A DNA stretch of 41,210 bases, taken from contig JAAYVR010000092.1 in the NCBI GenBank assembly GCA_012517065.1, positions 1 through 41,210 on the forward strand, in the 5' to 3' direction. The notes beneath the pieces were generated by a model. It did no database searches, was not told the DNA's origin, and worked only from the letters and a program-made list of their open reading frames with translations. This stretch comes from Verrucomicrobiota bacterium. Lineage in GTDB: Bacteria > Verrucomicrobiota > Verrucomicrobiia > Limisphaerales > J093. Below, piece by piece: positions 4,441 to 37,241 of this stretch; position 1 is the stretch's first letter, and every line of letters begins with the position of its first letter. The translations under genes and the position numbers were made by a program.

Positions 4441-4672
4441 AAGTAACCTTTTCTAAACCGCCGCGCCTAACCGGCACCCCCGGTTCAGTGGAGGCCCGAT
4501 TCGACCCGCGGCAGCACTTCATAGTGAGATCATCTGCGGCAGGCGTCAAGCGCGCCACACAACCAACAATTTTCGTTGGCAATCAGTGCCGGGTTTCTGG
4601 CACTATCAACCCGCGCAGAATGATCTGGACCAACAACAAATCTGCAAGCACCTTGCAACTTTATCTGCAACC

Positions 4673-5941
4673 ATGAAATCAACCAAGAAAATCGAGCAGG
4701 CTTATCGACTCGCTTCAGAACGCTATGCAGCCCTCGGTGTTGACACCGAGGCAGCACTCAAAAAGCTGGCAGGTGTGTCCATCTCAATACATTGCTGGCA
4801 GGGAGACGACGTGGGCGGTTTTGAAAGTGCCGACATGGAGCTCGGGGGTGGACTGGCCGTGACGGGCAATTATCCGGGCAAAGCGCGAACCGCGGCTGAA
4901 CTCCGGGCCGATTTCGAAAAGGTGTTGTCGCTGTTGCCAGGCAAACACCGGTTCAATGTCCACGCGTCGTATGCTGAAATGAGCGGCAAACGCGTTGACC
5001 GCGATGAGATCAGCGTCGAACAGTTCCGCAACTGGATCGACTGGGCAAAGAAACTGGGGATCGGGATGGACTTCAACCAGACTTATTTTGCACATCCGAA
5101 GGTCGATGGCGGATTCACGCTGACCCATCCGGACAAATCGATTCGGACGTTCTGGATTGAGCACGGGATTCGCTGCCGCGAAATCGGCGCTGCAATTGGC
5201 AAGGCGCTCGGCAAAACATGCCTCACCAACCTCTGGATTCCGGACGGCATGAAAGATACGCCCGCAGACAGACGCGGGCCGCGCGAACGGTTGGTTGAGT
5301 CACTCGACGCTATTTTCAAGCCCAAGATCGATCGCAAATACAACGTTGACTCGGTCGAGCCAAAACTGTTTGGCATCGGCGCCGAGAGTTACACACCCGG
5401 CTCGCACGAGTTTTATTTGGGGTACGCGGTAAGCCGTGGGATTCTGCTGACGCTGGACGCCGGCCACTACCACCCGACAGAAACCATTGCAGACAAAATC
5501 TCGGCGGTGCTGTGTTTTCTGCCGGAACTGGCGCTGCACGTGAGCCGGGGCGTTCGGTGGGACAGCGACCATGTTGTGACCTTGACAGACGAACTTCAGG
5601 CAATCGCGCAGGAGATCGTGTGGGGCGGATATTTGGGCCGGGTCCGCATCGGGCTCGATTACTTCGATGCCAGCATCAACAGGATCGCTGCATGGGTGAT
5701 TGGGAGCCGGAACATGATCCGGGCATTGCTGATGGCCTTGTTGACGCCAATCGATTCCATCAAAGCAGCCGAAGCCAGACGCGATTACACCACGCGCCTT
5801 GCTCTTTTCGAGGAAACCAAGTCGCTTCCGTTTGGCGCGGTATGGGACTGGTATTGCCTGAAGAACGACGTTCCGGTTGGCGAAGCGTGGCTTGCTGAAG
5901 TCAAGCAGTACGAAAAAGATGTCTTGTCGAAACGGTCCTAG
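4673..5941 (+). CDS. rhaA: L-rhamnose isomerase
   Basis: A 422-residue cytoplasmic enzyme converting L-rhamnose to L-rhamnulose, close to the 419 residues of the E. coli enzyme. Conserved blocks are visible: HCWQGDDVGGFE near the N-terminus, LDAGHYHPTE and RWDSDHVVTLTDE, which carry the His and Asp metal ligands of the family's TIM barrel. I chose ATG 4673 because the family begins just before this point; the open frame continues upstream to 4586 without family-like sequence. rhaT follows 154 bases downstream on the same strand. No rhamnulokinase or rhamnulose-phosphate aldolase gene lies in the window, so the rest of the pathway must be elsewhere. Confidence 0.96.
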   Translation: MKSTKKIEQAYRLASERYAALGVDTEAALKKLAGVSISIHCWQGDDVGGFESADMELGGGLAVTGNYPGKARTAAELRADFEKVLSLLPGKHRFNVHASYAEMSGKRVDRDEISVEQFRNWIDWAKKLGIGMDFNQTYFAHPKVDGGFTLTHPDKSIRTFWIEHGIRCREIGAAIGKALGKTCLTNLWIPDGMKDTPADRRGPRERLVESLDAIFKPKIDRKYNVDSVEPKLFGIGAESYTPGSHEFYLGYAVSRGILLTLDAGHYHPTETIADKISAVLCFLPELALHVSRGVRWDSDHVVTLTDELQAIAQEIVWGGYLGRVRIGLDYFDASINRIAAWVIGSRNMIRALLMALLTPIDSIKAAEARRDYTTRLALFEETKSLPFGAVWDWYCLKNDVPVGEAWLAEVKQYEKDVLSKRS

Positions 5942-6095
5942 CCGTTGGACCGGCAATTGGAGGTCACGCCAGCCTTGGTTCCTGTTCTGGTCTGACAACC
6001 GGTGCGCAGAGAAGATCGACAAATAACCTGAAAGGTTGAAAACGGGCGTCTGCTCTTGCAACGGGCGCCCGCCCAACCACAAATATGGAACTGCT

Positions 6096-7214
6096 ATGAA
6101 CGAAACTGCCCAAGTAACAAATCCCGTGCTCGGCGTCACAATTTTCGCCCTCGGCGGGCTCGCTGGCGCCGTGTTTTATCTCCCGTTCAAGAAGGTCAAG
6201 AACTGGGCATGGGAGAGCTACTGGTTGGTTTATGCCATTTTTGGCTTGTTGATAGTGCCGTGGCTATTGGCTTTGTTCACCTCACCAAATGTGATTGCGG
6301 TGTTGAAACAGGCGCCAGGACGGCAGGTGCTTTATTGTGCGATGTGCGGCGCGATGTGGGGTGTTGGCGGCCTCACATGGGGTTTGATGATCAGATACCT
6401 CGGGGTTGGGCTTGGTTTGGCGATAGGCTGCGGGCTCTGCTCGGCCGCCGGAACGCTCATTCCGCCGATAATCTCCGGCAACCTGCAAAAACTCTTCGGC
6501 ACGCCAGCCGGCTACGCGTCGTTGGCTGGGGTCGTAGTGTCGTTGCTGGGCATCGTGCTTGTTGGCATGGCCGGCATGTCGAAAGAAAACGAGTTGCCCG
6601 ACGCGGAAAAGAAAAAGGCGGTTGCCGAGTACAATTTCAAAAAAGGGCTGATTGTGGCGATTTTCTCCGGCCTGATGAGTTCCGCGATGAGCTTCGGGCT
6701 GCAAGGCGGCGCTGACATCGAGAAACTCGCACAAACCGTGTCGCCGGTTACCTCTGCAACATGGAGAGGCATGCCCGTGCTTGTTGTGGTGCTGTTTGGC
6801 GGGTTCATCGTGAATGCGACCTGGTGCATTCTGCTGAACGTTCGCAATAAGACCGGCGGCGATTATTGCCGGACAGACGCGCCGTTGTTTCTTAATCTTG
6901 TGTTTGCCGGGCTCGCAGGCGCGATTTGGTGTTCACAGTTCATTTGCTTCAAAACAGGCGAGCCTGCCATGGGCAAGATGGCCTACGTTGGATGGGCAGT
7001 TTTGATGGCCAGCGCCATCCTGTTCAGCACGCTCCTTGGCATTCTGCTTGGCGAGTGGAGAGGCACCAGCAACCGGACACGGACCTTGTTGGCGGCCGGG
7101 TTGGTGTTGCTGCTGCTCTCATCGGTCATCGCCGGTTACAGCGGCAATCTGGCTGAGAAACAGAATGTCGCTCCAAAGGCTGATCTGGCCGAGCAGGGCA
7201 CAGCGAGGATATGA
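6096..7214 (+). CDS. rhaT: L-rhamnose/proton symporter RhaT family
   Basis: A 372-residue inner-membrane protein with about ten hydrophobic helices, slightly longer than E. coli RhaT (344). Family-like features include the N-terminal segment with FYLPFKKVKNWAWES, then MCGAMWGVGGLTWGL and the block ending in AAGTLIPPI. It belongs to the drug/metabolite transporter superfamily and would import L-rhamnose with protons. ATG 6096 starts the first membrane segment after a short polar N-terminus; an upstream ATG at 6036 would add 20 unlike residues. Position right after rhaA supports a rhamnose uptake and isomerisation unit. The polar C-terminal tail after the last helix ends in a short acidic stretch. 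Confidence 0.92.
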   Translation: MNETAQVTNPVLGVTIFALGGLAGAVFYLPFKKVKNWAWESYWLVYAIFGLLIVPWLLALFTSPNVIAVLKQAPGRQVLYCAMCGAMWGVGGLTWGLMIRYLGVGLGLAIGCGLCSAAGTLIPPIISGNLQKLFGTPAGYASLAGVVVSLLGIVLVGMAGMSKENELPDAEKKKAVAEYNFKKGLIVAIFSGLMSSAMSFGLQGGADIEKLAQTVSPVTSATWRGMPVLVVVLFGGFIVNATWCILLNVRNKTGGDYCRTDAPLFLNLVFAGLAGAIWCSQFICFKTGEPAMGKMAYVGWAVLMASAILFSTLLGILLGEWRGTSNRTRTLLAAGLVLLLLSSVIAGYSGNLAEKQNVAPKADLAEQGTARI

Positions 7215-24972: not shown

Positions 24973-26397
24973 CTATTTTGGATCGGGCGGTGTCAATCTG
25001 ACAATTGCGCCGTTCCGCACGATTCCCATTGCCACGTTTGTCCGGGTGTTTTGGCCCGTGCCATCAAATTGGATTGTCCCGGCAACTCCCTGCCAGGGGG
25101 ACAATTTCGCGAGCGCTTCGCGGACGCGGGCACGGTTTGGGCCGCCGGATTGAATTGCAGCTATTAGCAATCGCGTGGCGTCGTAAGTGAGCGCCGCTGC
25201 ATGATCCGGGGCGTGCCCTCGAGCCATGGTGAATTCGCGGATGAAACCCGCGGTTGCCGGGTTTTCGGGATCGGGTACAAAAAGTATTGGCACGTGCACT
25301 CCCTCTGCGTGAGTGCCAGCGAGGGCAAGAAATCGTGCACGCGCCATCGCATGCGTTCCAAAAATGAGGCAACGCAGCTCGCCGTCATCTTCTGCTGTTT
25401 CGGAGCAAGATTTTTTGGGGTTCGGGATCGCCCGGCGCAGCGCGCTGGTATCATGGCACAGGCATTCTCGTGCGGCTTGGAGCAAGCGTGCCGAATCCTC
25501 CGGAGCGGCCACGATAAGCAGAATGATGTGACCGGACTGTCCCAAACTTTGCTCGAGAGGGGCGATTCGTTCGAGGTACGACTCCATGCCGGGCGGCAGT
25601 TCGAGTCTGTAATCGGGAAGGCGCCCGCGCAGTGAGAACTGTTTCATCACTTCACGCGCGGTCATTCGCGATTCGTGGTCGGTGCAACTGAGCATTACGA
25701 TCGATCGGGCGGTTTTGTGTTCGGTCCGGTTCGAAGTCGAGGATTGCAGCGCCCGGAACACATGATCTACGAGCACACGCGCGATTGCGTCGTCCGAGGG
25801 CGCACACGCAAACGTCCATGAAACCCCGGCGAGTGTTACGGACTTGTCGGTTGCGATTGGACTGACGAGGGGCAACTGCGCCTTGGCCACGACTTGTTCG
25901 GCGAGGTGGGTCGAAGCGGAATCGACCGAGCCCAAGAGAGCGATTGGGTGTTCTTCATAGACCATTCGGGCGAGAAGCGACACGCCGGTACCCCATGGAT
26001 TGGTTGCCCATCTTGGAACCAGTCGGAAAGGCAGGGAGGAAGACTCGGCATTGCCTTGTGGGACCGGCTTTGAAATCTCGGAGTTCGCCTTGTCAATGGC
26101 GAACCTTGCGGCCCACCACAAATCGCCGGTGAGCGGATCGTCAAGGTTTGTTGGGCCAAACCATCCGATTTTGTATTCGGTGGAATTGGTGATGTTGGCG
26201 GAGGGACCCGGGTACTCCAAAGTTGAATCGCGCAGCCGCATGTAAGGTGGGGGTTGTGCGGCATCGAGGTTTGGCCACAGGGTTGACATCAACCAGACCA
26301 TGGCCGCGGCGAGCCCGTGCGGCACTACGATGGCTGCCGTGTCCCGGTGGGCTTTGGTGCGGGTATCGCGGCACTGCGTTGACGGGAATTGGTTCAT
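24973..26397 (-). CDS. Periplasmic binding protein, type-1 fold (orphan), second copy
   Basis: A 474-residue protein with an atypical signal region (AAAMVWLMSTLWPNLDAAQ) and a type-1 periplasmic-binding fold of the branched-chain amino acid/amide type: YKIGWFGPTN, AARFAIDKANSE, PIALLGSVDSASTHLAEQVVAKAQLPLVSP, YDATRLLIAAIQSGG. Near its N-terminus it has LEYPGPS before the KIGxxGP block, similar to MEYTGPG in the protein at 27104, so the two are probably paralogues. Relatives usually deliver substrates to ABC permeases; no permease or ATPase gene is in the window. It is the last gene of the redox operon, 27 bases after the C_GCAxxG gene. The ligand is unknown. Confidence 0.85.
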   Translation of the reverse strand: MNQFPSTQCRDTRTKAHRDTAAIVVPHGLAAAMVWLMSTLWPNLDAAQPPPYMRLRDSTLEYPGPSANITNSTEYKIGWFGPTNLDDPLTGDLWWAARFAIDKANSEISKPVPQGNAESSSLPFRLVPRWATNPWGTGVSLLARMVYEEHPIALLGSVDSASTHLAEQVVAKAQLPLVSPIATDKSVTLAGVSWTFACAPSDDAIARVLVDHVFRALQSSTSNRTEHKTARSIVMLSCTDHESRMTAREVMKQFSLRGRLPDYRLELPPGMESYLERIAPLEQSLGQSGHIILLIVAAPEDSARLLQAARECLCHDTSALRRAIPNPKKSCSETAEDDGELRCLIFGTHAMARARFLALAGTHAEGVHVPILFVPDPENPATAGFIREFTMARGHAPDHAAALTYDATRLLIAAIQSGGPNRARVREALAKLSPWQGVAGTIQFDGTGQNTRTNVAMGIVRNGAIVRLTPPDPK

Positions 26398-26424: not shown

Positions 26425-27096
26425 TCAACCTCTGTCGAGAATAATTCCTGCGGCGATTCTCACGGCTTTTCGGACAACTCCGCCGCATTTTTCGGTCGGG
26501 TTGGCGGCCTGGAATTGTCCCAGGTCGGCGGGATCAGCCAGATTATACCTTTTGCCAAAGAGTCGTTCGACAATGTCCCCGCACATTGTGCTTCGCATTT
26601 CCTTGACGAACTGATCACAAAACTTGCGAGATGGGACGAGGCATGCGCGCCAGCCGGCCCAGTCGTCCAGGCGTTCCCGCCCGAACACAAGGCCCATGGC
26701 AAGCAAGCAGCCGGTAACCGCGCCACAAGTTTCGCCTCGTTCGGCGATTCCGGGCACGGCTGTCAACGCTTTGACGAACGAAGGATCGGCGAGGCCAAAA
26801 ACCTCATTCAGAGAAATGAAGCTCGTCTGCGCGCAGTTGTGGCATAACCGCATGTAGTACTCGGCCTTGTTATCGACCAACTCGAGCACTTCGTCTCGGG
26901 ATCGACCTTCGGCGAGTGGCGCGGGCTTGGGCGGGGCCGGAGTTGGTACGGGTGTGATTTCGGATTTGAGATTCTCCGTTTTCTTGCCTGCATTGCATCC
27001 CGAGAGTGCAATGGCTGCGGCCGGAACAAACGTCGTACTTAGAAAGTCACGGCGGGTAACAGACTCAGGCTTCTTGTGACGTCGGTGGTATTTCAA
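26425..27096 (-). CDS. Tat-lipoprotein of the C_GCAxxG_C_C family
   Basis: A 223-residue protein when started at TTG 27096, which has AGGTGA eight bases upstream and lies 7 bases after the previous stop. The N-terminus has Arg-Arg at 15-16 in VTRRDFLSTTF and a lipobox LSGC with C34, indicating twin-arginine export and lipid anchoring. A Pro-rich linker (about 48-60) precedes the domain with cysteines at 85, 88, 124, 130, 152, 160, 172 and 204; GETCGAVTGCLLAMG is the family signature. The family is thought to be redox-active but its chemistry is not established. It sits between two binding-protein genes. The frame stays open upstream to 27309, overlapping the preceding gene; I consider that extension false. 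Confidence 0.85.
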   Translation of the reverse strand: MKYHRRHKKPESVTRRDFLSTTFVPAAAIALSGCNAGKKTENLKSEITPVPTPAPPKPAPLAEGRSRDEVLELVDNKAEYYMRLCHNCAQTSFISLNEVFGLADPSFVKALTAVPGIAERGETCGAVTGCLLAMGLVFGRERLDDWAGWRACLVPSRKFCDQFVKEMRSTMCGDIVERLFGKRYNLADPADLGQFQAANPTEKCGGVVRKAVRIAAGIILDRG

Positions 27097-27103
27097 GGCG
27101 ATT

Positions 27104-28588
27104 TCACCTGATGCTGGCCTGTTCGCGTTCAACGCGTGGTCTTTCGATGACCGGCCCGGATGGAATGCCCATGTCTTCCCTCGAGTAATACTTCCATCTG
27201 CCGTTTTCGTATCGTGCGAGGAAGACCTCACCTGCGTCGTCGAGGGCTGCGCTGAGAGGGATATCGCCGGTAACACCCGGGAACGGATCTGGGCGATGCG
27301 CGAGGACATCGCGGATTTTAGCGCGGTTCAGACCGGCGGTTTGGATAGCCCAAATGAGCATGTTCATTCCGTCGTAGGCGTGGGAGGCGTAAGTGTCGGG
27401 TTCGACGCCCCAGCGTTTCTTGAAAGCCTCTCTGAACGCATCGAGTTTCGGGTCTTTGCGATCAGGGTTCCACGGGTACCCGCAAACGACGCCTTCGGCA
27501 TTGGGCCCTGCGATCTTGAGAAACTCGTCTGACACGGCGCGGTCGCAAAAGACGACCGGCTGTTTCATGCCACGGGCGCGGATTTGGTTCAGGGCGTGGG
27601 CGGCGTCTTCGCCGTCTCCCCAATACACAATTGCATCCGGGTCGGCTGCTTGGATGCGGTCGAGCTGCATTGTGAAGTCCCTTGAACCGACCTTGTGCGC
27701 CATTTCGACCACGATGGGGCGCCCCAACCTTCTGGCGCTATCGCGGATTTCGCGAACACCGAATCGGCCGTATCGGTTGCTGGACCTAAGGATTGCGACG
27801 CGGTGGCAATTCAGTTTGCGGAAGAGGTAATCAACCAGTATGTAGTTCTGCTGGCGGTCGTCTCCTATGCAACGAAAAACCCATGGAATGTTGGTCTCGA
27901 TATAAGTCGGATCAAGATCACCGGCAGTGAGCATTGGCAGTTCGGCTTTGAGTGCCACTCTGATGGCGATGTGTGTGTTTGCGCCGTCGATGGTGCCGAG
28001 TATGGCCCACACATGTTCCTTGTAAGCCATGTCAATGATCTCGTTGCCCGAAGCGCCCCATAGACCATTGTCATTGCGGACCACAAGTTCGAACGGGACT
28101 CGCCTTTTCAAATACCCGCCCTTGGCATTGGCCTCTTCGATGGCAAGCCGGCACCCGCGCAGCATCGCGATACCAAGATTCTCCTCGTGGCTTTTGCCGC
28201 CAGTTGCGACGGAGACGGTCGGCATGATAGGGCCGAGGAATCCGATCTTGACGGTATCAACGTGTTCGGGCTCCGGGATTGCCCGGCCAGGCCCCGTGTA
28301 TTCCATTTGCGCGAGAAAGTGCTCTTTGAATGGCTTGACCGCTCCGAAAGGTTCGACGTCTGCGGCTGATCGGGCGTAATTCTTGTTCGTCATCAGCGGC
28401 AGTGGCGGGACATGGTAAGCGTCAACGTCAATCAATTTCAGGATTTCCGCCACTGAAAGCGTTTGCTGCGGACCACTACCATCATGGGTTGCAGTGTCAC
28501 CTGCGATGCCAATCAAGCCCGACACAACACAGGCCACTGTCAGGCAGCCGATCTGCCGCCACGGGCGATACTCCAAGGTTCTTTTCAT
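27104..28588 (-). CDS. Periplasmic binding protein, type-1 fold (orphan), first copy
   Basis: A 494-residue exported protein (N-terminal hydrophobic segment GCLTVACVVSGLIGIAG). An extra ~80-residue region rich in Pro precedes the binding fold, which starts at VKIGFLGPIMP and continues with GCRLAIEEANAKGGYLKRRV, VWAILGTIDGANTHIAIRVAL, VAILRSSNRYGRFG, DAIVYWGDGEDAAHALNQIRARG and ASHAYDGMNMLIWAIQTAG. These are the hallmarks of the branched-chain amino acid/amide binding family. ATG 28588 is preferred over TTG 28594. It is encoded between the Reg_prop propeller gene (59 bases upstream) and the C_GCAxxG gene. No transporter partner is encoded nearby, so sensing, delivery to a periplasmic enzyme or a distant permease are all possible. 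Confidence 0.9.
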   Translation of the reverse strand: MKRTLEYRPWRQIGCLTVACVVSGLIGIAGDTATHDGSGPQQTLSVAEILKLIDVDAYHVPPLPLMTNKNYARSAADVEPFGAVKPFKEHFLAQMEYTGPGRAIPEPEHVDTVKIGFLGPIMPTVSVATGGKSHEENLGIAMLRGCRLAIEEANAKGGYLKRRVPFELVVRNDNGLWGASGNEIIDMAYKEHVWAILGTIDGANTHIAIRVALKAELPMLTAGDLDPTYIETNIPWVFRCIGDDRQQNYILVDYLFRKLNCHRVAILRSSNRYGRFGVREIRDSARRLGRPIVVEMAHKVGSRDFTMQLDRIQAADPDAIVYWGDGEDAAHALNQIRARGMKQPVVFCDRAVSDEFLKIAGPNAEGVVCGYPWNPDRKDPKLDAFREAFKKRWGVEPDTYASHAYDGMNMLIWAIQTAGLNRAKIRDVLAHRPDPFPGVTGDIPLSAALDDAGEVFLARYENGRWKYYSREDMGIPSGPVIERPRVEREQASIR

Positions 28589-28647
28589 AGGCAACTGCTG
28601 TGCTTAGGGTTGAGTGTCAAAAGGGAAATCTCATATTTAGGGCCAAT

Positions 28648-29841
28648 TCACGGGCGTGAACCTGAACCTGCAGTTTGTGTGTCCAAAGGCCTCAGACGAG
28701 GGTAATACCCTTCGCCGATTGCTCTTGCCAAACCTTTCGAGGTGCCGACCCACACATCATTGCCATCAAACTCGGCCCAAAGAACGTAATTGTGCGGGAC
28801 TCCTTGTTTGAACCGCAGCGTCTTGAGAATCTTGCCGGCGCGGCGAACCTCTGCAATGCCCTCGTGAGTGTCCGGGTCCATTGTGTAAACGACCCATGTA
28901 TCAGTCTCGAAATCTACAATGGCACCAATGCCCTTATCTGTGCAATACCAACATTCGTGAGCGCTCCTGCCGCGAGCGGCATTGTTAAAGTCGCTTGGAG
29001 TTCCGCCTTCTTGGGCGAAAAAGCCGCGCCAGTTTCGCCCGTCGTAACGGCACGCACCGAAGTAGGTCGAAACCCAAAGGGTCTTGTCCACGTATGAAAC
29101 CCCGGTGGTGATCACATGCACCACGCCGTCGTCACGATAAAGCTCGATTTCCATTTCGCCGTCAGGATCGAGGTAATGCTTCCAGCGTTCGGTAGCCAAA
29201 TCGAACTCGAGGATTCCGCTGCCCCAGACCGAGAGGAAAACCTTGCCATCCCTTGCGCTCACGCCGTAATTCCAGATTTCCTCCATGGGCGCATTTTGTT
29301 CGGTGTAAATGTTCCACTTGTCTTTGACGACGTTGTATCTGCTGGCGCCTGCGGTGGTGGCACACCAAACCTCATCGCCTATGACTGCCACGCCGTACAC
29401 GACGTCGTTGACCAGTCCGCTGTTGAGCTGATGATAGTGGTCGAACCGGCCGGCACTGAATCGGGCCAAGCCGCCTCCGAACAACGCCAGCCACACATCG
29501 CCGGTCTTAGGGTCAACATCAATGCCCGAAACGACGCGCCATGGCAGGCCATCCTTTTCTTTCCATGAACTGATTTTTCTGGTTTTTTTGTTGTAGCATG
29601 CAAGTCCGTCTTCGGTGCCGATCCACACGCAATCGCGAGTCGGATCAGCCTTGATGGCAAAGATGTGGTCGTTGGGCAGGCCATCTTTTGTGGTTATTTG
29701 CTCCCACTTGGTATAGACGTAGGGGAGGCCGGGCTCCCCATCAGTCGGGGCGCTGTCGGCGGCAGACAATGGCAGGGCAGGAAGCGCCGTGAATGCAACC
29801 AACAACGCTTGAACGGGCAGCAGTTTCGGTTTTGTTGGCAT
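28648..29841 (-). CDS. Secreted Reg_prop (two-component regulator propeller) protein
   Basis: A 397-residue protein with a signal peptide (LLPVQALLVAFTALPALPLSA). The mature part consists of repeats of the type DGLPNDHIFAIKAD ... VWIGTEDGLACYN and DVWLALFGGGLARFS, DEVWCATTAGASRYN, VWVGTSKGLARA, i.e. Reg_prop blades that normally form the sensor of hybrid two-component kinases. Here no kinase, membrane helix or DNA-binding part follows, so it is a free periplasmic propeller. AAGGATGA lies just upstream of ATG 29841. It lies 25 bases after the decahaem gene. Binding of a ligand, or a structural role in a redox complex, are the open options. Confidence 0.85.
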   Translation of the reverse strand: MPTKPKLLPVQALLVAFTALPALPLSAADSAPTDGEPGLPYVYTKWEQITTKDGLPNDHIFAIKADPTRDCVWIGTEDGLACYNKKTRKISSWKEKDGLPWRVVSGIDVDPKTGDVWLALFGGGLARFSAGRFDHYHQLNSGLVNDVVYGVAVIGDEVWCATTAGASRYNVVKDKWNIYTEQNAPMEEIWNYGVSARDGKVFLSVWGSGILEFDLATERWKHYLDPDGEMEIELYRDDGVVHVITTGVSYVDKTLWVSTYFGACRYDGRNWRGFFAQEGGTPSDFNNAARGRSAHECWYCTDKGIGAIVDFETDTWVVYTMDPDTHEGIAEVRRAGKILKTLRFKQGVPHNYVLWAEFDGNDVWVGTSKGLARAIGEGYYPRLRPLDTQTAGSGSRP

Positions 29842-29866: not shown

Positions 29867-32737
29867 CTACAGGGTCTTGAGGTACTCGATCAAATCGTTC
29901 AACTGATCTTTTGTCATGTCGTTTGTGACGCCGTGCTCGTCGTACGGATTATATTTAGTCCAAATCTCCTCGAGAGTCCATGCAATGCCGTTGTGCAGAT
30001 AAGGTGCGGAATCGTAGATATTGAGCAGTTGCGGCGAATCGAATTTCCCGTCGCGGTCGTAGGGGAACTTTGTGCCGACGTTGTGAATTCTGCCGTCGGT
30101 GTAGAGGGGGGGCGGGTGACACGTTACGCAACGGTTGTTGACCGGGATTGGTGAGCCATCGTTCTTGTGCGTGCGTTCGAATATCTCTTTGCCGCGGCGT
30201 TGAGCTTCAGTGAGGTCTTCGCCGAGTTTGCGGTAGCGATTTGGCGGCCTGGGGATTGTGCAGAGATAATAATGCAGATCGTCCAGTTGCTCTGATGTGA
30301 ACGGTTGAATGCGGGTGATGAAGACCGCCAGACGCGGTCCGCATTGCCGCCGAAGGCTGGGGTTGATCCCGATCCATTTGTAGGGCGCCATGTCGTTGAT
30401 TCCGCGGAGAGTGCGGTTGTCAATCGGCCCCATGCCGATGCCATCGTCTTCGATGTCGTAAACGATGTTGTCGATGTGGCCGTCGGGGTGGCAGGTGCTG
30501 CATGAGAACTGGCGCCTGAACGTGATGCTGGCGTTGTGGAAGAGCTTTTCGCCACGGCGCCGTTTGGTGAGTTCCTTGGCGCCGCCGAGATCGATTCGGC
30601 GAACAGCTTCGAGCTTTGCAAGGTCGATGGTGGTGACCGAGTCGTCAAGCATGCTTGCGACGTAGGCTGTTGAACCGTCTTTCGACACAGCAATGCCGCG
30701 CGGACAGGCTGGTACATCGATGCTTTTCACAAAGAACACGGACGATTTGCCGAGGTGATTTGGGACGACGTGCTTACGTTCGTACGCCGAGCTCGAGCGG
30801 AGCATTTCGACAAGTTTCTCGAGGTCAACGACACCCACGCGGTCAGTGCTGCTGCTGGTGACAAGGGCGTACTTGCCGTCCGGGGTGATGGCGACATCGC
30901 AAGGGTCGGGGAAATAAAGGTTGTTTTGGTCGAGGAGCACTTGGTCTGCGGTTCCGTCGCGCCAGATGATGCCGATGCCGTTGGTAATGGTCCAACCGCG
31001 GTTGATGCGGGTCATGGGCACGAGGTTCTTTGTCCTGAGCAGCGTGATGATGGCGTACTCGCCGCTCGGATGCCATGCAACGCCCTGGAGAAGATTGGCT
31101 GCGGGCAATACAATGCGATCGTTGACAACGGCCCTTTTCACGTCGATCACCGTCACCTCGGACATGCTGGGTGTTCGGTCCGGGACAAAACGCGACAGCG
31201 CGTGCGTTACGAGCATCAGTTCGCCGTCCGGGGAGATTGCGAGTGACCATGGCGATCTACTTGCCGAAAGCCGTTTGATTTCGCGGAGAGTTTCGATGTC
31301 AATGACCGAGATGCTGTCAATTGACGTGTTCAAGACATAGAGAACCTTCCCTTGTGGGTCCACCATTACGCCGTGCGGTTCATCCCCAACCTCGATTGTT
31401 GATATCACTTTTTGCGAAGCCACATCGATCACTGACACAGAATCGTCCAGCCGATTGGAAACAAACGCTTTTCGTCCGTCGGGGGTGAAACAGACATCGT
31501 TTGGCTGACCGCCGACAGCGATCTCGGCGACTTTGGATTGTGTGGCCGTATCAACGATTGCCACTGAGGCCGAAGCCTCGCAGGCGACCCAAAGCTGCTT
31601 GCCGTCCGGGGTCAGACAGAGATTCAAAGGGTTCTTGTACGTTGGTTCTTCGGCCACATCAGCTTTGGCTGGTTTCGTCGGGTGCGCAATCTTCTCGACC
31701 TCCTTGTCATAATCAAAGTCGCCGCTGCCCTGTCCCTGGTGGCATTGCAGGCAGACTTTTCTGTCAACAGCCCAGAGACCGTTTTGGCGGGCGGCAGCCT
31801 TGTCTCGCATTATTGCCTCAGATGAGTACTCACTGCCAGGGCCATGACATGCCTCGCACTGGACACCATCGCGCACGTCAAACGTGTCCAGCCGCGCCGA
31901 GGCATCCTTGCCTGCTGCGGTACTATGGCACTTGAGGCACTGGTCGGCTTCTTGCGGGTTGCCGATAACACCTTTTTCTTTAGCGATCTGAAGGCCTTTT
32001 GGTGTGCCAAGCGTTGCCCATGCTTCGGCGTGTTTCGACAATCGCCATTTGCTGAACTGGAAGTTGAACATCGGCCCGGTGTGACAAGCCGCACATTTCA
32101 TCACGCCGACGAATTTGAACTGGGAAGTGGCCGTCTCGCTCTTTGCCGAAGGAGAATCGGATTGCGAAGCCTTTGGCGTGGGATGAGCGATTGCTTCCCA
32201 TGCGGCGTCCAGTTTAAAAGGCTGGGTCTTGAGGACAGCTTCGTGGGAACCTTTCGAGCGGTGGCAAATGTAGCAATCATCTTTTGATGGCATCTTGAGT
32301 CCGGCTGCCATGGCTTTCATGCGATCCTGCATTACATCGGCGGTCGCATACTCGCTTCCTGGTCCGTGGCAAGCCTCACATTGCAAGCCGTCTTCGAGAT
32401 GAAACCCCTCGCCTCTTTCCCATTTTTCGGCTTCTGCCGCGGTAGTGTGGCAACCGAGGCACATTTTTGCTTTGTACGGTTCCTCTGTTATACCGCTCAA
32501 TCTGGTGATTTCCTTGCTTTGTGGGAGAGAGAGTGTCGCGTAAGCCTTGGCGTGGGCGCTGAGGTGCCATTTGCTGTATTGGAACCCCATTTGCGGGCCG
32601 TCATGGCATGACCCGCACGCTTTGGACCCGATGTAGATTGGCTCTTTGGCGGGGCCTTCCATTGCGGCAAAGGAGTGTTGCCCTGCCATGATTGAAAGGC
32701 ACATCAGAGCGCAAAACGCAATCGAGCGGCGTTTCAT
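29867..32737 (-). CDS. Decahaem fusion: two tetrahaem c554-like modules, YVTN propeller, MauG-like dihaem module
   Basis: A 956-residue exported protein (signal ends near AFAAM, about residue 25) with ten CxxCH haem sites. Module 1: 41, 93, 120 and 155. Module 2: 215, 267, 294 and 329, with the same spacing and shared text (CEACHGPGSEY twice, HPTP/HPTK at 185/352), so it is an internal duplication of a cytochrome c554-type tetrahaem unit. Residues about 365-715 form a YVTN beta-propeller (TPDGKQLWVA, DSVSVIDVAS, PHGVMVDPQG). Residues about 725-956 resemble dihaem peroxidases/MauG: CSTCH at 746, LRGINDMAPYKWIG, CVTCH at 870, APYLHNGIAWTLEEIW. It overlaps the upstream UnbV gene by 4 bases. Propeller plus dihaem module parallels hydrazine synthase beta and gamma. 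Substrate unknown. Confidence 0.93.
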   Translation of the reverse strand: MKRRSIAFCALMCLSIMAGQHSFAAMEGPAKEPIYIGSKACGSCHDGPQMGFQYSKWHLSAHAKAYATLSLPQSKEITRLSGITEEPYKAKMCLGCHTTAAEAEKWERGEGFHLEDGLQCEACHGPGSEYATADVMQDRMKAMAAGLKMPSKDDCYICHRSKGSHEAVLKTQPFKLDAAWEAIAHPTPKASQSDSPSAKSETATSQFKFVGVMKCAACHTGPMFNFQFSKWRLSKHAEAWATLGTPKGLQIAKEKGVIGNPQEADQCLKCHSTAAGKDASARLDTFDVRDGVQCEACHGPGSEYSSEAIMRDKAAARQNGLWAVDRKVCLQCHQGQGSGDFDYDKEVEKIAHPTKPAKADVAEEPTYKNPLNLCLTPDGKQLWVACEASASVAIVDTATQSKVAEIAVGGQPNDVCFTPDGRKAFVSNRLDDSVSVIDVASQKVISTIEVGDEPHGVMVDPQGKVLYVLNTSIDSISVIDIETLREIKRLSASRSPWSLAISPDGELMLVTHALSRFVPDRTPSMSEVTVIDVKRAVVNDRIVLPAANLLQGVAWHPSGEYAIITLLRTKNLVPMTRINRGWTITNGIGIIWRDGTADQVLLDQNNLYFPDPCDVAITPDGKYALVTSSSTDRVGVVDLEKLVEMLRSSSAYERKHVVPNHLGKSSVFFVKSIDVPACPRGIAVSKDGSTAYVASMLDDSVTTIDLAKLEAVRRIDLGGAKELTKRRRGEKLFHNASITFRRQFSCSTCHPDGHIDNIVYDIEDDGIGMGPIDNRTLRGINDMAPYKWIGINPSLRRQCGPRLAVFITRIQPFTSEQLDDLHYYLCTIPRPPNRYRKLGEDLTEAQRRGKEIFERTHKNDGSPIPVNNRCVTCHPPPLYTDGRIHNVGTKFPYDRDGKFDSPQLLNIYDSAPYLHNGIAWTLEEIWTKYNPYDEHGVTNDMTKDQLNDLIEYLKTL

Positions 32738-34419
32738 TGTTTGCCTTGGGTTATTTTTAGGATTTGGTTGGCTTGGACGTCGTTCAAGACGGTTTTCTGA
32801 CGGTTAGGCCAGACGATTTCGACAAGCTCGGCTTTGGCGGCTTTTCCGAGTCCAAAATTCGGCCTCGGATCGCTGCATGTCAGATAGCCGTTCACGCCTA
32901 TGACTGGCTGGATCATTGTCATGCCGTTGGCCTTGACTGTCACGGTGGCACCGATTGCGATCGCGCCGGTGTCGGCTCGCAATGGCACGACCTTGAGCCA
33001 GTTCAGGCGGTTTCCGCCATCGTTGCGCAGCAGGTGTGGCGGCTCGTTCAACGCGTTTACAAGGATGTCGATGTCACCGTCGTTGTCGAAATCGGCAAAA
33101 GCAGCGCCGCGCCCGACGTGTTTGCTGTCGAAGAAACCTCCTGATTTGCGAGCCATGTCTATGAACCTGTCCTTGCCATTCCAGCGGGCGATTACAGCTT
33201 CTTCGACGTAAAGGTGGTGTGGGTCTCCGTTTGCTATGAAAAGGTCCACATAACCGTCGTTGTCGTAGTCGTTCAGAAGCCCACCCCAACCTGTGTATTG
33301 TCCGCAAAGAAGTGCAACTCCGGACTGAGTTGTTACATCGACGAACACGGCTTTGTTGATTTGCAAAAGGAGGCAACTATAACCCATGTCGGGGACCAGG
33401 AGATCGAGGAGACCGTTGCGATCGAGGTCGGCGACGAACGGGCCCATGCTTGACACGCCTTGGCCGCCTTCGCCGAAGGCTGTGCCTGTTTCGGCGGCCA
33501 TGTCCTTGAATTTGCCGGTGCCGTCGTTGATCCAGAGGTTGTTCGACATGGCATCGTTGGTGACATAGATATCCATATCGCCGTCGCAGTCAATATCGCA
33601 GGCTACTGCGCCCATGCCGCGGCCGGTCGGTTCCCAAAGGCCGACTTCTTTTGTCACGTCAGTGAACGTGCCGTCGCCATTGTTGCGGTAGAGATGATCA
33701 GGCAAGCCGGGGTAGGAAAGCGGCCCTGGGAAATTGTCGGCTTTGTAATAGGCGCCGGTGCGCTGGAACGCGCCCTTGTCGTATTCGAGGTAGTGAACGA
33801 CAAACAGGTCGAGCAATCCGTCGCCGTTGTAGTCGAGCCATGGCGCGGCCAGCGACCAGCCGGGGCTTGTGAGACCGGCTTTCTCGGTCACGTCGGTGAA
33901 CGTGCCGTCGCCGTTGTTGCGGTAGAGAATGCAGCGGCCGTAGTTACAAACGAAAAGGTCGAGGTCACCGTCGTTGTCGTAATCGGCAGCGGAAGCGGCC
34001 ATTCCGTAGCTGTCTTCGTATCCGGCGACGCCGGCTTTGTCGGTGACGTCGGTGAACGTGCCGTTACCGTTGTTGTGGTAGAGTGCGTTTTTGAGTTTGC
34101 CTTTGAGTGATCTGCCGCGGTTGTCATTGACATCCGGGTGCCAGCGGCCGTTGACGAAGTAGATGTCCATGAAACCGTCGTTGTCGTAGTCGAAAACGCA
34201 ACTGCCAGGGCCGGTGGCTTCGACGATGTTGCTCATCTCGAAGTCGCCTAAGCTGTGCTTGAATTTGATGCCTGCGGATTCGGTTATGTCGGTGAACACA
34301 GGCCAGTTGGTGGGTTCGTCACACCTCGGGCTTGAACAAGTCGCGGCCATCGCGATTGTGGCCAGGGTGGTGATCACACGGCGGATTTGGATGTTTGACC
34401 TTGTTGTTGTTTCACGCAT
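32734..34419 (-). CDS. CRTAC1/UnbV-ASPIC family secreted seven-repeat propeller
   Basis: A 561-residue exported protein. Its first hydrophobic stretch (VITTLATIAMAATC) is a probable signal, possibly with a lipobox-like Cys. Seven VCBS/FG-GAP repeats each carry a calcium loop: DYDNDGFMD, DYDNDGDLD, DYNGDGLLD, DIDCDGDMD, DLDRNGLLD, DYDNDGYVD and DFDNDGDID, predicting a seven-bladed propeller. The C-terminal UnbV/ASPIC domain (about 465-561) ends with FGLGKAAKAELVEIVWPNRQ and QILKITQ. No enzymatic residues are evident; proteins of this type are common beside exported cytochromes in this phylum, perhaps as assembly or binding partners. It lies 21 bases downstream of the HzsA-like gene and overlaps the decahaem gene by ATGA. 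Confidence 0.92.
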   Translation of the reverse strand: MRETTTRSNIQIRRVITTLATIAMAATCSSPRCDEPTNWPVFTDITESAGIKFKHSLGDFEMSNIVEATGPGSCVFDYDNDGFMDIYFVNGRWHPDVNDNRGRSLKGKLKNALYHNNGNGTFTDVTDKAGVAGYEDSYGMAASAADYDNDGDLDLFVCNYGRCILYRNNGDGTFTDVTEKAGLTSPGWSLAAPWLDYNGDGLLDLFVVHYLEYDKGAFQRTGAYYKADNFPGPLSYPGLPDHLYRNNGDGTFTDVTKEVGLWEPTGRGMGAVACDIDCDGDMDIYVTNDAMSNNLWINDGTGKFKDMAAETGTAFGEGGQGVSSMGPFVADLDRNGLLDLLVPDMGYSCLLLQINKAVFVDVTTQSGVALLCGQYTGWGGLLNDYDNDGYVDLFIANGDPHHLYVEEAVIARWNGKDRFIDMARKSGGFFDSKHVGRGAAFADFDNDGDIDILVNALNEPPHLLRNDGGNRLNWLKVVPLRADTGAIAIGATVTVKANGMTMIQPVIGVNGYLTCSDPRPNFGLGKAAKAELVEIVWPNRQKTVLNDVQANQILKITQGKQ

Positions 34420-34440: not shown

Positions 34441-36600
34441 TCATTTGTCTTGTGGCACGGCAGGTTTTTCACCATCAGGTCCGCCTGGCATTGCAAAGGC
34501 AGCGCCAAGGTCAATCCACTGGATTATGGTCTGCAATTCCTCAGGGGCGAGGGCGCGTGCTTTTCCCTTGGGCGGCATTTGGGTGACTTTTCTGTCCGGC
34601 CGCTTTTGTCTTTCCGAAGCGTTGTCCCACGGACGGGCAGTGTTCGTGCCGAGCAGTTGCCACACAAGCCAGCTCGTGCGGGCTCGCCCTTGGTCGATGT
34701 ACTTGCCCCTCTTGAGCAACGGGAGAGACTGCTGGTCCGCAGCCTGATTATCTTCAGGGGCCGTCAGGGCAGAGTACGCGCGTTCGAGGTCGGCTTCGGA
34801 AGGTCGTTCGCTCGAAAGCGGGAGAAACAGGGGATTGTTGCGGTTTCCGTGGCAATCGGCGGAGCTGCAGTAATTCATGAAGATTCTGGCTGCGTCGGTG
34901 CGAAAGACAACCGCTCGTCGTTTCTCGGGCGGAAGGGTCAACTCGTTTGAGGGGCGCCTTAGAGCCAGAACATACTCGTTCTCGGGGACAAGTTCTGGGT
35001 CTTCATGGCATCCGATGCAACCGCGTGTTTCCTTGGGCTGGACCCACATCCAACCGCTTGTTGCCAGGGCGAGCCCGTGTTGATCGAGTGTCTGCAGGAT
35101 GATCGGTGTGTTGGCAGGCACCTCGACGTTGAACGATCCGTCGGCCTCAACAGGGGCCTCGCCGATGAGGCGGCGTGGGACCGGAAGTATGCCTTTGTGC
35201 AACGAACGGGAGTCAGACGTGCTTGCCGCTTGAAGAACGCCCTCGATAAACCTCACCCGTTTGATCGAGCCCGGCGTCAGGTGTGGTTGCATCATGTCGT
35301 TTGCAATGTACGAGTTCATCCCATAGAACACGCCGGTTTTTGCCTTTGTATCGACGACGGTAGAGTGGCCGTCGGGGCTCTTGCGCGGTCTGAGTGGGTG
35401 GGCTTGGAGGTCGTCATGGTCCGGGCTGTCAAAGACTCGCCTGCAACTCAATTTATCCGCATCAAAGGCGAAAACGCCTGCGGTGTCTTTGCCGTCTGTG
35501 CTGCGCCTCGATACCAGCAGCACGTTGTCGTGCAGAGGGTATGGATACAGATAGACTTGGGCCGGGTCGTCCGTGAGCTTGCGATAGGTGTAATGGGGGC
35601 GTGATTCGTGGACACAAGCCAGTTGACCTGCCGTGCCCCGGGCCTGCGTGTCAGATTCAACGAAAACCACAAGGCCTTTTGGTGTGGCGCACGGCATGTC
35701 TTTGAACCGCCGGCCGTGTTCTCCGGCGTAAAGCTCAACGTCGGCTCCCTCGATGTGAATGGCAAACAGGCGCACACCATAAACTTCGCCCGGCTCAGTG
35801 GGATGCTGTTCAGCGGCATAGATCAGCCGTCCGTCCCACATTTGAAACGGGCTGAAGTTACTGTTTGGGTTGTAAGTCAGCCGGCGCATTTCCGTACCGT
35901 CCAATTTGATGTTATAGAGACTCGATGAGGCTGGCAGGCCAAGCTCGGTAAGTGTGTTCTCGCGAGCAACATACGCGATGGTGAACCATGGCTGCGGCGA
36001 ATCCAAAGTGAACAGGGTTGAAAGGTAGATGGGATTTCGTGCTTCCTGCCCTTCAGGTGTTATGGGCCGGAGACCTGTGCCATCCACTCCGATCTCATAA
36101 ACCCGCCAGTGCGAATTCACATCCTTCTTCCCCGCGAACAACACCCGTGTGCCGTCAAGCGAAACACCCGGGTCGCAAGCCGAGTGAAACCCCTCGGAGA
36201 GCACACGCGTTTGTCCGTCGGGTGACACAATCACCACGCGCGCTCCGAGAAACGAAGGCTGCAATCCGAACGGTCGATCCAATGCCGCCGTGAGCGGTTC
36301 TTGGCTGTTTGCCCCGTTTGTGGGCGAAACCGGCACTTGCGTCAAGACAAGGGCCGGGATATCGGCGGCGGTAGGTTCAGCCCCGGTTTGAAAGGCGATG
36401 CTGGCGGGTGCAATAATCATGGCCGAAACCAGCGCCGCAGTCGCCAAGACAATCTTACCGGCAAACGAGAATCCAACGCGTCGCGAGCGCACAGAGAAAC
36501 CGGAATATTTCTCGCCGCTGTTGTGCGGGGATTTCTGGCTCGGCGGTTTGTTCCAGTCACCGGGTTTTGTGGCTGGCATGGGTTGGTTCGGGTCTGACAT
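34441..36600 (-). CDS. HzsA-like (hydrazine synthase alpha-related) haem protein
   Basis: A 719-residue protein. A membrane-anchoring or signal helix lies at about 43-68. Residues about 105-420 have propeller-like repeats (SLDGTRVLFAGKKD, YNIKLDGTEMRRLTYNP, WDGRLIYAAEQHP), followed by a middle domain of HZS-alpha type with the haem site CIGCH (528-532). The C-terminal domain has CSSADCHG (578-584), a C-x4-CH site, and a QMPPKGKARALAPEELQ block whose Met675 can be the second haem ligand. Layout matches HZS-alpha (propeller, haem alpha-I, haem alpha-II). The residue four after His532 is Glu, not the Tyr I recall as haem ligand in anammox enzymes, so identical chemistry should not be assumed. 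ATG 36600 follows the RidA gene by 14 bases. Confidence 0.88.
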   Translation of the reverse strand: MSDPNQPMPATKPGDWNKPPSQKSPHNSGEKYSGFSVRSRRVGFSFAGKIVLATAALVSAMIIAPASIAFQTGAEPTAADIPALVLTQVPVSPTNGANSQEPLTAALDRPFGLQPSFLGARVVIVSPDGQTRVLSEGFHSACDPGVSLDGTRVLFAGKKDVNSHWRVYEIGVDGTGLRPITPEGQEARNPIYLSTLFTLDSPQPWFTIAYVARENTLTELGLPASSSLYNIKLDGTEMRRLTYNPNSNFSPFQMWDGRLIYAAEQHPTEPGEVYGVRLFAIHIEGADVELYAGEHGRRFKDMPCATPKGLVVFVESDTQARGTAGQLACVHESRPHYTYRKLTDDPAQVYLYPYPLHDNVLLVSRRSTDGKDTAGVFAFDADKLSCRRVFDSPDHDDLQAHPLRPRKSPDGHSTVVDTKAKTGVFYGMNSYIANDMMQPHLTPGSIKRVRFIEGVLQAASTSDSRSLHKGILPVPRRLIGEAPVEADGSFNVEVPANTPIILQTLDQHGLALATSGWMWVQPKETRGCIGCHEDPELVPENEYVLALRRPSNELTLPPEKRRAVVFRTDAARIFMNYCSSADCHGNRNNPLFLPLSSERPSEADLERAYSALTAPEDNQAADQQSLPLLKRGKYIDQGRARTSWLVWQLLGTNTARPWDNASERQKRPDRKVTQMPPKGKARALAPEELQTIIQWIDLGAAFAMPGGPDGEKPAVPQDK

Positions 36601-36614
36601 GCGATTGTGGATGA

Positions 36615-37241
36615 TCAGTTTCCTTCGCGGTAGATCACGGCCTGAGCTTCGATCTCGACCAACAGGTCGTCCCGGCAAATGCGCGCCTGAACGCCTGTGC
36701 TCGCAGGGTAAGGGTCCAACCCGAGCGCATTGTAAAACTCGGTGCGCACATTGTTGAACTCCGCATAATCCCTTTCAATGTCCCGCAAATAGCACGCCGT
36801 TCGAATCACATCATGCCAACTCGCCCCTTCGCTCGCAAGCAATCTGGTGATGTTTCGAAACGCGCGCCAGCACTGAGCCCGAAAATCGCAAGGGTACAGT
36901 GTCTCCCCCTTGGCTCCCACACTGGCGGTCCCGCTTATGATGAGAAGGGTTATCCCATGAGGAAAATCAAGGCGAAGCCCGCGACTAAAAGCGCTTCCGT
37001 AAGCGCTCGCTTCATTGAGAACTTCAGGCGCACAAATGGCTCGCTTCTTGATCAGCGAGCCGTTCGGACGCGATCCCGACAAAATGGACGGAGGAGCAGG
37101 TCTATCCCCCGGCAGCCCAAGAGCCATGCGCTCTGTTCTCTCGGCTTCGGAGTAAGCAGACCGTTGAGACTGCTTATGCGACAGACGCTTCTGATTGACG
37201 CGACGGTGGTGCGGGATTTTTGATACTCTTTTGATTGTCAT
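36615..37241 (-). CDS. RidA/YjgF family protein with N-terminal extension
   Basis: A 208-residue protein if started at ATG 37241. The RidA-type domain occupies about residues 77-208: ASAYGSAFSRGLRL, LLIISGTASVGAKGET, FRAQCWRAFRNITRLLASEGAS, DVIRTACYLRDIERDYAEFN and STGVQARICRDDLLVEIEAQAVI, including the conserved Arg and Glu of the active cleft. RidA proteins hydrolyse reactive enamine/imine intermediates in the cytoplasm as trimers. The first ~76 residues are basic with no recognised domain and may not be translated. No signal peptide is seen, so it is the only likely cytoplasmic member of the operon, of which it would be the first gene. Confidence 0.82.
   Translation of the reverse strand: MTIKRVSKIPHHRRVNQKRLSHKQSQRSAYSEAERTERMALGLPGDRPAPPSILSGSRPNGSLIKKRAICAPEVLNEASAYGSAFSRGLRLDFPHGITLLIISGTASVGAKGETLYPCDFRAQCWRAFRNITRLLASEGASWHDVIRTACYLRDIERDYAEFNNVRTEFYNALGLDPYPASTGVQARICRDDLLVEIEAQAVIYREGN

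Follow-up and report, generated by a model that had tools for sequence, protein, structure and literature searches.

A gene at positions 29867-32737 (minus strand) of the window, i.e., of the whole 41,210-nucleotide stretch of verrucomicrobial DNA analysed here, encodes a ten-haem protein in which two cytochrome c554 modules are fused to homologues of the beta and gamma subunits of hydrazine synthase (HZS), and it is located in a conserved operon together with a homologue of HZS alpha. These proteins probably constitute a complex of the HZS superfamily that carries a built-in electron relay and that is not a genuine HZS. The decahaem protein belongs to a published but uncharacterised family. 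HZS was long believed to have no homologues outside anammox bacteria, and in December 2025 the architecture was described in the main text of Hagglund et al. (PMC12758564) as "clade I" of the HZS homologues, with co-located genes for alpha, FG-GAP and beta-gamma homologues and with two c554 domains that add eight haem motifs, only four being added in the exceptional case of Opitutus terrae. The view of the preliminary description that no characterised protein shows this order is thus upheld for the biochemistry in the literature searched, but not for the architecture itself. Added here are a wider conserved operon, a CX4CH motif at the haem alpha-II position in 20 of 56 alpha homologues and a locus (L106) encoding the beta-gamma homologue and a c554 protein as separate genes.

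The minus-strand open reading frame comprises 956 amino acids and contains all ten CxxCH motifs that had been proposed for it, starting at residues 41, 93, 120, 155, 215, 267, 294, 329, 746 and 870, and the plus strand across the same positions is interrupted by stop codons. Along the protein, cytochrome c554 is matched twice in Pfam, followed by propeller families and then by sub-threshold CcP/MauG and cytochrome c scores. A scan of a genome collection, from which the best 80 of 95 confirmed matches yielded 79 distinct named loci, assigned these loci mainly to Planctomycetota, Acidobacteriota and Verrucomicrobiota, with fewer in Omnitrophota, Aminicenantes and one deltaproteobacterial metagenome-assembled genome (MAG). 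For 65 of the 79 loci the beta-gamma row spans more than 880 residues of the window protein, and the alignment of these with the window protein shows all ten CxxCH motifs in 66/66 full-length sequences, next to the invariant residues C799, W788 and H935. The motifs and the fusion are therefore neither due to chance nor a local assembly artefact. An error joining two genes in this genome only, which the preliminary description had considered, is ruled out by the 79 named loci carrying the fusion, by the 66/66 alignments and by a 95% identical copy in L030, a Verrucomicrobiota MAG and the nearest named relative by decahaem protein among the best 80 of the 95 matches. In a quick tree of 35 rows, about half of the decahaem rows and built independently of the published clade I alignment, the window protein groups with other decahaem proteins including those of Aquisphaera and Thermogutta. 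Several loci deviate in their own ways: in L034 (9590-12848) and L083 (9941-12813) the decahaem gene is split over two frames, representing either a frameshift by assembly error or decay; the protein of L103, labelled Arcobacter sp., groups with Bryobacteraceae, so that this MAG is probably mislabelled; and the verrucomicrobial relatives L011-L020 encode a sister type, a three-haem beta-gamma homologue of 38-40% identity adjoining a second open reading frame with one haem motif.

The octahaem part consists of module 1 (residues 34-188, haems 1-4; 32174-32638, minus strand) and module 2 (residues 208-355, haems 5-8; 31673-32116, minus strand), both matching PF13435. They share 42% of 156 aligned positions (E 8e-46), which bears out the suggested duplication of a tetrahaem module. 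The PF13435 score of 113.1 bits over two stretches lies above the curated cut-off of 20.8, and the N-terminal part also matches cytochrome c554 of known structure (PDB 1bvb/1ft5) by sequence with E 2.6e-6. Each four-haem module offers three conserved candidate distal histidines, namely H62, H165 and H185 in the first and H236, column 337 and H352 in the second, column 337 being histidine in 55/66 proteins and glycine in the window, where module 2 hence misses one of them. In cytochrome c554 one haem has an open site, and the putative pattern of three distal histidines per module resembles this arrangement. In a quick tree of both modules from 34 decahaem proteins, about half of all, the module-2 copies without exception share one side of a branch (support 100), from which it follows that the duplication is older than the spread over the phyla. 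L086 and L106 have single modules, which sit on the module-1 side. L086 (6208-12376; Opitutaceae) has only four N-terminal haems, of the module-1 type, and lacks the alpha-II haem motif. In L106 (3111-5784) a beta-gamma homologue with two haems, in which the third gamma cysteine is absent, and a tetrahaem c554 protein of 220 amino acids are encoded by separate adjacent genes. This is direct evidence for the module being a partner that occurs either fused or as a free protein, making a role as relay plausible. Of the eight-haem wire proposed initially this role is thus retained, while an outside or membrane partner and a flow of electrons out of the dihaem site are unsupported. The latter applies also to an extracellular decahaem wire of the MtrC type, a barely conceivable reading: besides the number of ten haems it can draw on a match to the Pfam family Mtrc-MtrF_II-IV that overlaps the c554 part, but this match reaches 55 bits compared to 113 for c554, two of the ten haems are placed inside the HZS-gamma domain, and no porin-like gene was recognised among the common neighbours upon clustering of the loci.

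The propeller and the dihaem end, described before as a propeller and a MauG/CcP-like domain, are both present; together they correspond to the HZS beta-gamma pair and not to a free CcP/MauG fusion. The HZS-beta-like seven-bladed propeller covers about residues 366-710 (30608-31642, minus strand), of which residues 369-705 match HZS beta (PDB 5c2v_B) with E 1.2e-43. The HZS-gamma-like dihaem domain covers residues 725-956 (29870-30565, minus strand), of which residues 727-956 match HZS gamma (5c2v_C) with E 2.5e-18, and it contains haem gamma-I at C746, haem gamma-II at C870 and a third cysteine, C799. An AlphaFold2 model of the decahaem protein based on 64 sequences (mean pLDDT 82.9, pTM 0.80) has pLDDT values above 90 over most of the propeller and of about 50-60 around gamma-I. 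Its best PDB chain is 5c2v_B (Z 48.1, rmsd 1.9, 341 aligned residues; next chain Z 40.0), which is also found by Foldseek with E 3.0e-31; the PDB fold matches listed for this model are almost all propellers and barely cover the c554 and gamma parts. The scores stay below the curated NCBIfam cut-offs for HZS, with 178.5 of 560 bits for beta, 80.5 of 625 bits for gamma and 211 of 1250 for the fusion model.

For the active site of gamma, the sequences were aligned with four anammox beta-gamma rows, using HZS numbering and residue roles as given in the main texts of PMC12607021 and PMC12758564. Cys102, Cys105, His106, Cys165, His229 and His332 of HZS are kept in 66/66 beta-gamma homologues; in the window protein H750 corresponds to His106, C799 to Cys165, H874 to His229 and H935 to His332. 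The position of Glu122 is occupied by aspartate in 64/66, that of His144 by tryptophan in 66/66 and that of Asp168 by leucine, with an arginine beside it, in 66/66. Judged from these alignments and that of alpha below, haem gamma-II, where electrons enter, and the covalent frame around gamma-I have been preserved, but not the groups to which NO reduction and hydrazine condensation are ascribed. The tryptophan invites a comparison with CcP/MauG-type peroxidases and protein-modifying oxidases, since gamma belongs to the MauG/CcP fold family (PMC12607021, main text) and it is a tryptophan needed by CcP and MauG that replaces His144 (PMC12758564, main text). An enzyme of this type would exchange electrons with the octahaem part and the alpha homologue would be its scaffold or target. 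This is an unlikely explanation given that the family CCP_MauG (PF03150) scores 19.3 bits, below its curated threshold of 25.6, that the third haem cysteine is retained as in HZS and that a conserved alpha protein with a haem site of its own and two substrate-binding proteins would be unexpected for a peroxidase.

The HZS-alpha homologue is encoded two genes upstream of the decahaem gene (34441-36678, minus strand; 745 amino acids as listed from a TTG, with ATG codons downstream, one of them at 36600). It matches NF052339 with E 5e-44, PF18582 above cut-off and 5c2v_A with E 9.4e-31, and its 150.4 of 800 bits are below the curated cut-off for HZS alpha. A model based on 45 sequences (pLDDT 79.0, pTM 0.80) finds 5c2v_D as the best chain (Z 36.7, rmsd 3.6, 584 aligned residues; next chain 28.0). 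In an alignment of 56 alpha homologues (55 loci and the window) with three anammox rows, the haem alpha-I residues Cys583, Cys586 and His587 are kept in 56/56, the window protein having the motif CIGCH at residue 554. Ser590 and the proximal ligand of alpha-I, Tyr591, fall into a gap in 56/56, His772 is unconserved (histidine in 3/56), and Cys303 is unconserved as well, being glutamate in two of the three anammox rows too. The gap at alpha-I, like the replacements in gamma, was likewise observed in the main text of Hagglund et al. (PMC12758564).

At the alpha-II position, where HZS has CxxCH, the window protein carries a CX4CH motif (CSSADCH, residues 604-610). Among the 56 alpha homologues, 20 show CX4CH, 28 CxxCH (including L043 and L056, which have CVGCH as second motif) and eight neither. 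The CX4CH rows are derived from eight Verrucomicrobiota, nine Acidobacteriota and three Omnitrophota, as assigned by record label and kinship. The first cysteine of alpha-II follows that of alpha-I by 50 residues in the CX4CH and the CxxCH types alike, and the inner residues of CX4CH are variable (SSAD, ASVE, AAAG, ALAD, SGTA and others), which fits the expectation for a haem motif. Moreover, an MP motif is present in the C-terminal stretch of 19/20 CX4CH proteins, where class-I cytochromes carry the methionine ligand, with Met701 in the window. Haems bound by CX4CH are known from cytochromes c3, and the motif at alpha-II is read here as a putative real haem site with altered spacing, in which case haems in alpha would be undercounted if CxxCH alone is considered. 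A literature search on CX4CH combined with further terms returned nothing.

The genes are arranged on the minus strand in the order Rid, HZS-alpha homologue, FG-GAP/ASPIC, decahaem, Reg_prop, SBP1, C_GCAxxG and SBP2, with intergenic gaps of at most 25 nucleotides from alpha through Reg_prop. The run starts with a Rid-family protein (PF01042; 36615-37241) directly before alpha. The FG-GAP/ASPIC-UnbV protein of the CRTAC1 type (32734-34419) overlaps the decahaem gene by 4 nucleotides, and downstream of the latter follow a Reg_prop propeller protein (28648-29841; PF07494, E 1.2e-4), substrate-binding protein 1 (SBP1; 27104-28594), a C_GCAxxG_C_C protein (26425-27309), whose listed start overlaps SBP1, and substrate-binding protein 2 (SBP2; 24973-26397), both binding proteins belonging to Peripla_BP_6 in Pfam. 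In loci with sufficient upstream sequence, alpha is encoded upstream of the decahaem gene in 49/50 and FG-GAP in 48/50; in those with sufficient downstream sequence, Reg_prop and SBP1 follow in 53/53 each and a second SBP in 49/53. Rid is found in 25 of the 79 named loci and C_GCAxxG in only four. Between phyla SBP1 and Reg_prop are conserved to roughly the same extent as the enzyme subunits or higher, pointing to a working role of both. Promoter and terminator scans gave results near the shuffled expectation. A longer Rid protein comprising two such stretches is encoded in several loci, and in six loci a carbon-nitrogen hydrolase of the nitrilase family is found near the end of the cluster, e.g., L090 (16853-17875). 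Elsewhere in the window, an L-rhamnose isomerase gene adjoins one for a rhamnose-proton symporter (4586-7211, plus strand), and other genes checked are mostly housekeeping, such as those for trigger factor, MutS, DnaG and a class-I tRNA synthetase.

The source genome (5.26 Mb, 95% complete) has a strong match to NrfA, a weak NirK-like match far under the cut-off and no match to the HAO family. A candidate hydrazine dehydrogenase is hence missing, and this argues against an energy metabolism of the anammox type. Among 97 relatives, own genome included, NrfA or an HAO-family protein occurs in 8/9 genomes with the decahaem gene and in 26/88 without it (Fisher p 0.0008); within the source family the corresponding numbers are 6/7 and 5/7 (p 1.0), so that the co-occurrence may reflect lineage or lifestyle only and nothing is concluded from it on the substrate. 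In a mixed set with phyla unmatched between the groups, 51 genomes with the cluster (own genome and those of 50 of the 79 loci) were compared with 29 without it: HAO-family proteins were found in 24 vs 4, NrfA in 16 vs 3 and NirK above the cut-off in 1 vs 5. A true hydrazine synthase outside anammox bacteria, forming hydrazine from NO and ammonium, could account for the homology and co-location of all three subunits and for the three-cysteine frame of gamma-I and the ligands of gamma-II being kept in 66/66. Such an enzyme is highly improbable, since alpha, beta, gamma and the fusion score far under the curated cut-offs, His144, Asp168 and Tyr591 are lost, and the source genome lacks the HAO-family match mentioned above; the view against it is shared in the main text of Hagglund et al. 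(PMC12758564). On the replaced residues and the curated cut-offs, a genuine HZS is rejected, the kept haem frame being the one defining feature that agrees.

The HZS-superfamily complex with a built-in relay is favored as best explanation by the sequence and fold matches to HZS beta, gamma and alpha, the conservation of the operon, the kept haem motifs and the separate c554 gene of L106; against it count the replaced gamma-His144 and Asp168, the gap at alpha-Tyr591, the beta-gamma homologue of L106 without a third cysteine and the pLDDT of about 50-60 around gamma-I. The alpha homologue and the fused beta-gamma homologue would assemble into a periplasmic complex, in which each HZS-type propeller scaffold might hold a haem site, alpha-I in alpha and gamma-I beside gamma-II in beta-gamma. 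The layout is most likely similar to HZS, with haem sites on a propeller scaffold and electron entry at gamma-II. The duplicated c554 module would act as an eight-haem relay between periplasmic donors and gamma-II, followed by gamma-I. If the enzyme is reductive like HZS, electrons would enter through the octahaem part and a small substrate would be reduced at the three-cysteine haem gamma-I, where the two co-encoded binding proteins might help to deliver it. This direction is preferred here at about even odds, and it is a guess, as is the substrate, which may be a nitrogen compound. Given the residue changes at gamma-I and alpha-I, the enzyme probably forms something other than hydrazine. The opposite direction, suggested in the preliminary description, would make the dihaem site oxidise its substrate and the octahaem part carry the electrons to a periplasmic pool. 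In ammonia oxidisers, cytochrome c554 takes up electrons from hydroxylamine oxidoreductase, a role as acceptor in line with an oxidative enzyme, to which an organic substrate could be supplied by the binding proteins. This direction is possible but rather doubtful, as HZS, the nearest characterised relative, is reductive at gamma-I (PMC12607021, main text).

More speculatively, the HZS-superfamily complex might represent a second, non-anammox branch of HZS-type chemistry, i.e., a two-site periplasmic enzyme forming or breaking nitrogen bonds with a non-ammonium substrate, such as an organic amine brought in by SBP1 and SBP2, and connected to its own octahaem part. The branch would extend at the least over Planctomycetota, Verrucomicrobiota, Acidobacteriota and Omnitrophota; this broader idea is an unlikely one. 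The origin of HZS chemistry could naturally be studied in such a sister family, which is large, uncharacterised and equipped with a built-in relay, and its existence warns against taking matches to hzsA or hzsBC in metagenomes as a sign of anammox. The conserved operon offers concrete proteins for co-purification, and the compounds bound by SBP1 and SBP2 would give a lead to the substrate.

Compared with known systems, the decahaem protein shares the tetrahaem module of PF13435 with cytochrome c554, but contains two tandem copies fused to an enzyme, whereas cytochrome c554 itself is a single small carrier. With clade I as described in the main text of PMC12758564 the window shares alpha, FG-GAP and fused beta-gamma in identical order, two N-terminal c554 domains, the kept gamma Cys165, the exchange of His144 for tryptophan, the gap at alpha Tyr591/Ser590 and the absent His772; L086 repeats the four-motif exception of O. 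terrae. It differs from clade I in the CX4CH instead of CxxCH at alpha-II and in the Reg_prop, the two SBP and the Rid neighbours found here. In the main text of that paper, a word search did not find the CX4CH finding, Reg_prop, Rid neighbours or Verrucomicrobiota, and two SBP genes are reported there, apparently for clade III. With anammox HZS (PDB 5c2v; PMC12607021, main text) the similarity comprises the homology of three subunits, the propeller folds, the three-cysteine frame of gamma-I and the two histidine ligands of gamma-II, and the differences are the added octahaem part, the lack of His144, Asp168, Tyr591 and His772 and scores far under the curated cut-offs. Finally, the hzsABC-like genes of Phycisphaerae UBA1845 (PMC10732223) likewise comprise an hzsA-like gene and, directly downstream of it, a fused hzsBC-like gene, but a c554 module is unmentioned in the main text of that study, whose authors proposed a wider family of HZS-like enzymes acting on other substrates.
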